Of a DNA stretch of 64,000 nt, positions 10,499 to 11,320 are shown piece by piece (the stretch's first letter is position 1; each line of letters starts with the position of its first letter). The stretch is from Abyssibacter profundi (GTDB taxonomy: Bacteria > Pseudomonadota > Gammaproteobacteria > Nevskiales > OUC007): NCBI RefSeq assembly GCF_003151135.1, contig NZ_QEQK01000010.1, positions 1-64,000 on the forward strand, in the 5' to 3' direction. A program made the position numbers and the translations under genes. Under the pieces are notes generated by a model. That model had not been told where the DNA came from, searched no databases, and was given only the letters and a program-made list of their open reading frames with translations.

Positions 10499-10936
10499 CT
10501 ACGCCGATAGCCAGAAGGTGACAGGCCCATCGTTCACCAATGCGACCTGCATATCGGCGCCGAAGCGGCCGGTTTCGACCATCGGCAATCCGTGCCTGCA
10601 ACACTGCACCAGATGCTCGAATAGGGGCTGGGCGACCGCGGGCGGTGCGGCGGTGGAGAATCCCGGTCGGTTGCCCTTGCGCGTGTCGGCCACCAGCGTG
10701 AACTGCGACACCAGTAACAGGCCGCCCCCGACATCCGCCAGAGAACAGTTCATGCGTCCCTGGTCATCCGGAAACATGCGGTAGGACAGCATGCGCTGCG
10801 CAAGCCGCTCGGCGCGAGCAACATTGTCATCGGGCTCCACGCCGACCAGGGCCAGGGTTCCGCTCTTGATTGCGCCGACAACGACCCCATCCACGGTCAC
10901 GGAGGCGTTGTTGACGCGCTGCAGCAATGCTTTCAT
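10499..10936 (-). CDS. dtd: D-aminoacyl-tRNA deacylase
   Basis: 145 residues, full length. The two active-site motifs are present: LLLVSQFTLVAD (catalytic Thr/Ser strand) and the C-terminal NDGPVTFWL containing the cross-subunit Gly-cisPro. It removes D-amino acids mis-charged on tRNA. It sits 93 bp upstream of hisB on the same strand and may share transcription with the his genes. Its own leader shows no strong ribosome site and carries a palindrome 26 bp before the start. Confidence 0.94.
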   Translation of the reverse strand: MKALLQRVNNASVTVDGVVVGAIKSGTLALVGVEPDDNVARAERLAQRMLSYRMFPDDQGRMNCSLADVGGGLLLVSQFTLVADTRKGNRPGFSTAAPPAVAQPLFEHLVQCCRHGLPMVETGRFGADMQVALVNDGPVTFWLSA

Positions 10937-10961
10937 CTGTAGGAGTTATCTGACATTCGGG

Positions 10962-10976: not shown

Positions 10977-11013
10977 ACATGGAAATGTTTTGTGAAGCGC
11001 GCATAATAGGCCG

Positions 11014-11247
11014 GGCCTGTTCAGGGACACGGAGTCCAGGGATGGTTAGAACGGGCGCGAGCAAGGATGGTGATTTCGAACCTAGCAAGGTTCCAATTTC
11101 GAAGGTCGCCGGGCAAGGAACGCCTGGTTTGAGCGGTTGGCCAAGAGCCGCTGGCTGGATGCCGACGTGAAGTGATGGTTCCCCAGTCGTCCCTCACGTT
11201 CATTGCCTTCGTACTCGGCCCGGTGCTTGCACCGGGCCATCTTTTTT
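11014..11247 (+). ncRNA. Candidate CsrB/RsmY-type regulatory RNA
   Basis: An intergenic stretch of about 235 nt with six GGA motifs in its first 150 nt (11024, 11031, 11040, 11065, 11117, 11157) and a strong terminator at its end. Several GGAs fall in hairpin loops: GGAC-ACGGA-GTCC (11025-11037), GGGC-AAGGAAC-GCCT (11111-11125) and GGC-TGGAT-GCC (11153-11163). ACACGGAGT, CAGGGATG and CAAGGATG match the CsrA/RsmA recognition pattern CANGGANG. A possible -10 (CATAAT, 11002-11007) puts the start near 11014; the -35 is poor. Such RNAs titrate CsrA/RsmA and so free target mRNAs, often for exopolysaccharide and secretion. Exact ends and promoter are estimates. Confidence 0.6.
11217..11247 (+). terminator. 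Rho-independent terminator
   Basis: GGCCCGGTG-CTTG-CACCGGGCC is a perfect 9-bp stem with a four-base loop, followed by ATC and six T. No protein gene on the plus strand ends before it, so it most likely ends the candidate regulatory RNA. Confidence 0.85.
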
Positions 11248-11320
11248 GGGGCAGCCCCCAGAACACCGGCTCCCGCTTCCGCTGACGTACACTGCGCCAC
11301 ATGCGTGTCGAGTCTTCCGC

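Follow-up and report, generated by a model that had tools for sequence, protein, structure and literature searches.

Between dtd, the gene for D-Tyr-tRNA deacylase, and an AddB-like gene, the window (the whole stretch of 64,000 nt analysed here, on contig C10 of a 3.74-Mb genome) carries a conserved block that we read, with a probability of roughly 85%, as a stand-alone small RNA gene of the CsrB/RsmZ type, which would be activated by GacA through an upstream box and would sequester CsrA. An earlier note on this DNA had suggested a CsrB/RsmY-like RNA at this place, and the suggestion is strengthened by conserved ANGGA loops, by orthologues of CsrA and GacA, by a GacA-box-like palindrome upstream and by Rsm-like RNAs at the same dtd-divergent position elsewhere. 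The elements of the locus are as follows.

10499-10936, minus strand: dtd, the divergent neighbour (PF02580, E 7e-54)
10938-10955, plus strand: GacA-box-like palindrome TGTAGGAGTTATCTGACA, its centre about 67 nt before the predicted start, at the same position in both congeners
10980-11007, plus strand: sigma-70-type promoter TGGAAA-N16-CATAAT, from a consensus scan, its -35 and -10 invariant in three species
11015-11247, plus strand: putative non-coding CsrB/Rsm-type RNA of about 233 nt with a predicted 5' end, recognised by identity to the congeners and ANGGA enrichment
11217-11247, plus strand: intrinsic terminator GGCCCGGTGCTTGCACCGGGCC followed by a T tract, invariant in three species except for the loop

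The consensus scan of the block between dtd and addB returned one promoter-like site where 0.1 would be expected by chance, and the start predicted from it, near 11014/11015, is the first base of an 8-bp stem. The terminator noticed earlier at the end of the stretch is indeed there, with a 9-bp stem of which eight pairs are G-C, a 4-nt loop and a T run. The end of the span first proposed for the RNA, 11008-11247, stands, while the RNA itself more likely occupies 11015-11247, with the promoter and the box lying upstream of the start first given. The AddB-like gene begins at about 11324, encodes a PD-(D/E)XK nuclease domain and is followed by an AddA-like UvrD helicase-nuclease gene.

For comparison we used the window species, two congeners (G001 and G002) and a member of a sister genus of the same family (G003). 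The block expected in relatives between dtd and the AddB-like gene is present in both congeners, where it is 90.6-94.9% identical to the window, compared with 66-77% for the adjoining coding DNA of dtd and addB and 39-47% for the DNA between the terminator and addB. One of the few conserved bits in that last interval is a -10-like TACACT at 11287-11292 (TAAACT in G002), which may belong to a separate promoter for addB, leaving that gene a minimal leader or none. The alignment also bears on whether the stretch is protein-free, as had been claimed. A single frame of 63 aa (10979-11170) is open in the window copy and could be taken for a short protein gene, but it is confined to that copy, being broken in both sister species by a 2-nt indel and in-frame stops; we therefore rejected this reading, to which we give almost no weight. 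Judged by these features, the locus appears to have the promoter of its own, the intrinsic terminator and the non-coding character of CsrB/Rsm genes.

The predicted fold of the RNA places most of its GGA triplets where CsrA could reach them, and contains the following parts, all on the plus strand.

11015-11056, plus strand: 5' domain, an 8-bp stem GCCUGUUC/GAACGGGC around the hairpin GGAC-ACGGA-GUCC and an AGGGA site, supported by folds and by G003
11029-11033, plus strand: ACGGA hairpin loop, candidate CsrA site, GGA unpaired with probability 0.99, A-N-GGA in four of four genomes
11038-11042, plus strand: AGGGA, candidate CsrA site, GGA (at 11040) unpaired 0.88, AAGGA in G001 and ATGGA in G003
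11063-11067, plus strand: AAGGA, candidate CsrA site, GGA unpaired 0.15 with predicted pairing to the 3' tail, invariant in three species
11100-11211, plus strand: multibranched core closed by CGAAGGU/GCCUUCG, a fold common to three species and nearly invariant
11115-11119, plus strand: AAGGA in a 7-nt hairpin loop, candidate CsrA site, GGA unpaired 0.99, ATGGA in G001
11155-11159, plus strand: TGGAT hairpin loop on a 3-bp stem, candidate CsrA site, GGA unpaired 0.99

Four of the six GGA triplets are thus predicted to be unpaired: those of the loops ACGGA, AAGGA and TGGAT, which the earlier note had already singled out, and a fourth in AGGGA. ACGGA forms a 5-nt loop on a 4-bp stem and UGGA likewise lies in a 5-nt loop, so that the model has the exposed ANGGA/GGA motifs typical of CsrB/Rsm RNAs. 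Both CsrA targets (PMC7652899) and Rsm RNAs (PMC7911923) are described with GGA exposed in this way, in loops or unpaired strands. The six GGA motifs counted earlier are present, but they do not constitute an enrichment, since dinucleotide shuffles give 5.4, and the raw count is therefore not evidence by itself. The excess lies instead in ANGGA (5 observed versus 0.96 expected, p about 0.001) and in CANGGANG (2 versus 0.09, p 0.003), by the same shuffles. Whichever strand of the 64-kb window is scanned, five or more ANGGA within 233 nt occur only in stretches that overlap the RNA locus. All five ANGGA are retained in the three species, as the proposal of conserved GGA loops would have it. Folding energy is only mildly better than that of shuffled sequence (z of -1.4, -2.6 and -3.3 for the three species' RNAs), so the case leans on conservation more than on stability. 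Separately, pairing is possible in all three species between the AAGGATGG site (11063-11071) and CCATCTTTT, where the terminator ends (11237-11246), and CsrA binding at the former may compete with this long-range helix.

The sister genus retains a reduced form of the locus. All that G003 keeps is the 42-nt 5' domain, which lies ahead of addB and runs directly into it with no terminator. In the 8-bp stem of this domain two pairs differ at both bases without any pair being lost; this covariation, drawn from three distinct rows and below significance, is suggestive support for the stem. No GacA orthologue was found in G003, and the locus there appears to be eroded alongside.

The genome encodes CsrA, the CsrA/RsmA protein expected of a host of CsrB/Rsm RNAs, in one copy (PF02599, E 4e-26) downstream of an aspartokinase-like gene. 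A GacA/UvrY orthologue and a palindromic upstream box are usual in this class of RNAs, if not universal, and both were found, the box TGTAGGAGTTATCTGACA as a degenerate match. The GacA orthologue is 52% identical to E. coli UvrY, in agreement with its domains and its neighbourhood, in which a uracil-DNA-glycosylase-like gene and uvrC follow (neighbours named from reading the sequence). The box of the window is imperfect, and the linker behind it is unlike that of other families, with the -10 at 46 nt and CGAC not at 18 nt. When up to one mismatch was allowed, a search of the window genome for the GacA box of Pseudomonas found none. A perfect TGTAGG-N6-CCTACA box does occur at G000:C5:332581-332598 (L165), between subtilisin-like protease and fructose-bisphosphatase-like genes. 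It does not precede a GGA-rich RNA and was set aside; on its protease side is a leader with CCAGGATGG, CCACGGATCCG and AAGGAG, and given these motifs and the perfect box, CsrA may act on the protease gene and GacA may control it directly.

To follow the locus beyond the family, the DNA upstream of dtd was read in 85 genomes of the order, all of which have dtd, although in G063 a contig end truncates the region. In G005, G007, G021, G026, G042 and G065, a GGA-rich stretch that finishes in a terminator-like sequence runs divergently from dtd, apparently as two in tandem in G026 and G042. Taken alone, some of these show no significant ANGGA enrichment (p 0.096 in G007 and 0.08 for the first RNA of G026). 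The layout in other families, reading away from dtd, is box, CGAC, RNA and terminator. The palindromes in front are TGTAGGGCCAAACCTACA (G007), TGTAGGAAAATTCTTACA (G005), CGTAGGAAATATCCTACA (G021) and CGTAGGGAATTCCCTACA (G026), and that of G065, TGTAAGCCGTTTCTTACA, fits TGTAAG-N6-CTTACA exactly; the UvrY/GacA consensus is TGTAAGN6CTTACA (PMC4682653) and the Pseudomonas rsmY box is TGTAAGCATTCTCTTACA (PMC4353343). With at most one mismatch, the box stands beside dtd in 9 of 84 genomes and in none of 20 rounds of shuffles. CGAC follows exactly 18 nt after the box in eight genomes, and a -10-like hexamer about 44 nt after it, the latter figure being the softer because the search favoured 44. From position, box and spacing, all the dtd-linked RNAs may descend from one gene. 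The relatives' sequences are too divergent for the DNA and covariance searches tried, so it is divergence from dtd that links them, the opposite of the earlier expectation that a search by position would miss the RNA.

These loci also bear on whether the RNA could instead be the untranslated leader of an addB-addA operon, its terminator acting as an attenuator or riboswitch-like switch, possibly set by CsrA. Promoter, structured RNA, terminator and addB do lie in that order on one strand, and in G003 the 5' domain passes straight to addB. An attenuator would nevertheless be expected to stay with the downstream gene that it regulates, and this RNA does not: the gene on the far side is addB in the window family, an LpxL-type acyltransferase gene in G005, G007 and G009, and one for a TRAP-type binding protein in G006, G016 and G021 (all named from reading the sequence), while the constant neighbour is dtd. 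Moreover, apart from the -10-like hexamer, the DNA between terminator and addB is unconserved. Synteny and alignment thus led us to reject the leader reading, which we hold to be quite unlikely; since the right-hand neighbour changes between families, the RNA is a gene of its own, linked to dtd.

The box also tends to occur together with GacA. A GacA at least 64% identical to that of the window genome is found in 36 of the 85 genomes, and a box with at most two mismatches in 11 of these 36 versus 2 of the other 48 (p 0.0015, a value that ignores relatedness among genomes, whose shared ancestry makes the counts non-independent). The two exceptions, with a box and no detected GacA, are G002 and G065, whose assemblies are 94% and 79% complete, so that GacA could be missing from either; in G002 the RNA itself is intact. 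The dtd-linked locus is not universal, since the GacA-positive genera f2g12, f2g13 and f2g17 have no box beside dtd. In f6g7, f2g11 and f2g3, genera that together count 37 genomes and have no close GacA orthologue, no box-plus-terminator arrangement was found beside dtd. As a separate observation, the 14 genomes of f6g7 (e.g., G008 and G011), which have no close GacA orthologue, either lack CsrA or have a short divergent match of about 40 residues, an apparent loss of the Gac/Csr circuit.

Not all of the dtd-linked RNAs are rich in GGA. Those of f4 have only two or three and share GGTTCTCCAGCCT before the terminator, and those of f2g8 and f2g10 have few or none and share ATGGTTTTTCCTCC(TCCC) and carry ATGGTTTTTCCTCCTCCC; the RNA of G065 has a GGA part plus ATGGTTTCTCCTCCC. 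Short terminator-ended stretches at L089, L084, L115, L113, L124 and L126 (beside dtd in G009, G024, G030, G048, G055 and G058) have a half-box (TTTTCCTACA-like) in front, few or no GGA and a common ATGGTTTTTCCTCCTCCC-type stretch, and are possibly anti-Shine-Dalgarno sRNAs. At L099, L096, L097 and L098 (G006, G013, G016 and G010) lie RNA-like stretches in which the common GGTTCTCCAGCCT precedes the terminator; G006 and G013 appear to have two of them in tandem. In these loci and in G005, the Rfam anti-hemB family (RF02837) repeatedly gave weak matches, scoring 20-25 bits where the threshold is 49.5. The f2g8 and f2g10 RNAs, with an unpaired CCUCCUCCC-type stretch, resemble the alpha-r14 or cuckoo RNAs, in which CCUCCUCCC is the anti-Shine-Dalgarno motif (PMC10746234), but differ from them in having a single motif, before the terminator and behind a half-box; the window RNA differs in having no CCUCCUCCC motif.

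Such variants raise the possibility that the window RNA, too, is a GacA-box-controlled sRNA that works mainly by using its conserved core to base-pair with mRNAs, with CsrA binding playing a minor part. A simple row of GGA hairpins would not require a core as conserved as this one, and the f2g8 and f2g10 RNAs show that a dtd-linked RNA can have ATGGTTTTTCCTCCTCCC and scarcely any GGA. Against this, the five ANGGA are retained in three species, four GGA are predicted to be unpaired, and it is precisely the GGA-rich part that G003 keeps, so we regard this reading as unlikely and favour the CsrA-sequestering RNA. More tentatively, the dtd locus might be a single ancient sRNA gene under GacA control, built of a CsrA sponge on the 5' side and a pyrimidine-rich anti-Shine-Dalgarno module on the 3' side, the sponge having been lost in f2g8 and f2g10, which would leave a base-pairing sRNA, and being dominant in others such as the window. 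If so, a regulator would have switched from protein sponge to mRNA-pairing RNA while its promoter and place were retained.

Comparison with Rfam families did not place the RNA in any of them. None of 4227 Rfam families reached threshold in the window, including CsrB, CsrC, PrrB_RsmZ and RsmY at their gathering thresholds; weak matches to suhB and isrO covering the terminator were far below threshold and were dismissed. The RsmZ model found nothing over threshold in 21 genomes, and CsrB/Rsm families were absent among the Rfam matches to the relatives' dtd-linked loci. A DNA search of 61 relatives and plasmids gave only short, chance-like matches beyond the genus. A three-sequence covariance model, run on the order and on 369 genomes of the class, retrieved only the genus and the G003 5' domain, absence from the class being weak evidence with few candidates scored per genome; a degenerate 5'-domain pattern returned from genome contigs the genus and G003, plus unrelated taxa here and there, about as many as chance would give.

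In its architecture the gene recalls RsmX, RsmY and RsmZ of Pseudomonas (RF00195, RF00166), sharing a GacA-type palindromic upstream box, ANGGA in hairpin loops, an intrinsic terminator, a stand-alone position and a genome encoding CsrA and GacA. It differs from them in lying beside dtd, in its length of about 233 nt with a multibranched core and in its lack of an Rfam match, and the dtd-linked box is mostly TGTAGG-N6-CCTACA, not TGTAAG-N6-CTTACA. With CsrB and CsrC of enterobacteria (RF00018, RF00084) it shares repeated candidate CsrA sites, a UvrY/GacA-type box and, by analogy, an expected sponge mechanism. In contrast to them, the window RNA has only six GGA sites, and the distance from the centre of its upstream box to the predicted start is about 67 nt, compared with 182 nt for E. 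coli csrB (PMC4682653). Combining ANGGA motifs, a terminator and a GacA site in a search is an established approach (PMC5568370). Our literature search, whose scope excluded subscription journals, found no paper pairing csrB or rsmX with dtd and no report of CsrA sRNAs in Nevskiales.

The RNA is probably activated by GacA: phosphorylated GacA would bind the palindrome at 10938-10955 and activate the promoter at 10980-11007, and an RNA of about 233 nt would be transcribed up to the terminator. Its exposed ANGGA loops would bind CsrA dimers and withdraw CsrA from mRNAs, such that GacA signalling would relieve CsrA control of its targets. Transcription, binding of GacA to a TGTAGG-type box, binding of CsrA and the identity of the freed mRNAs are all steps that we infer from sequence.

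A CsrA-sequestering sRNA is a well-known kind of regulator, and what appears to be new here is the dtd-linked locus. It supplies what looks like the part so far lacking from the Gac/Csr circuit of this little-studied gammaproteobacterial order, together with a positional rule, in that looking for a TGTAGG-N6-CCTACA-type box beside dtd picks up such RNAs that sequence and covariance searches miss. With the locus intact in some relatives, eroded where no GacA was detected and altered in others, the evolution of a CsrA sponge becomes directly testable.
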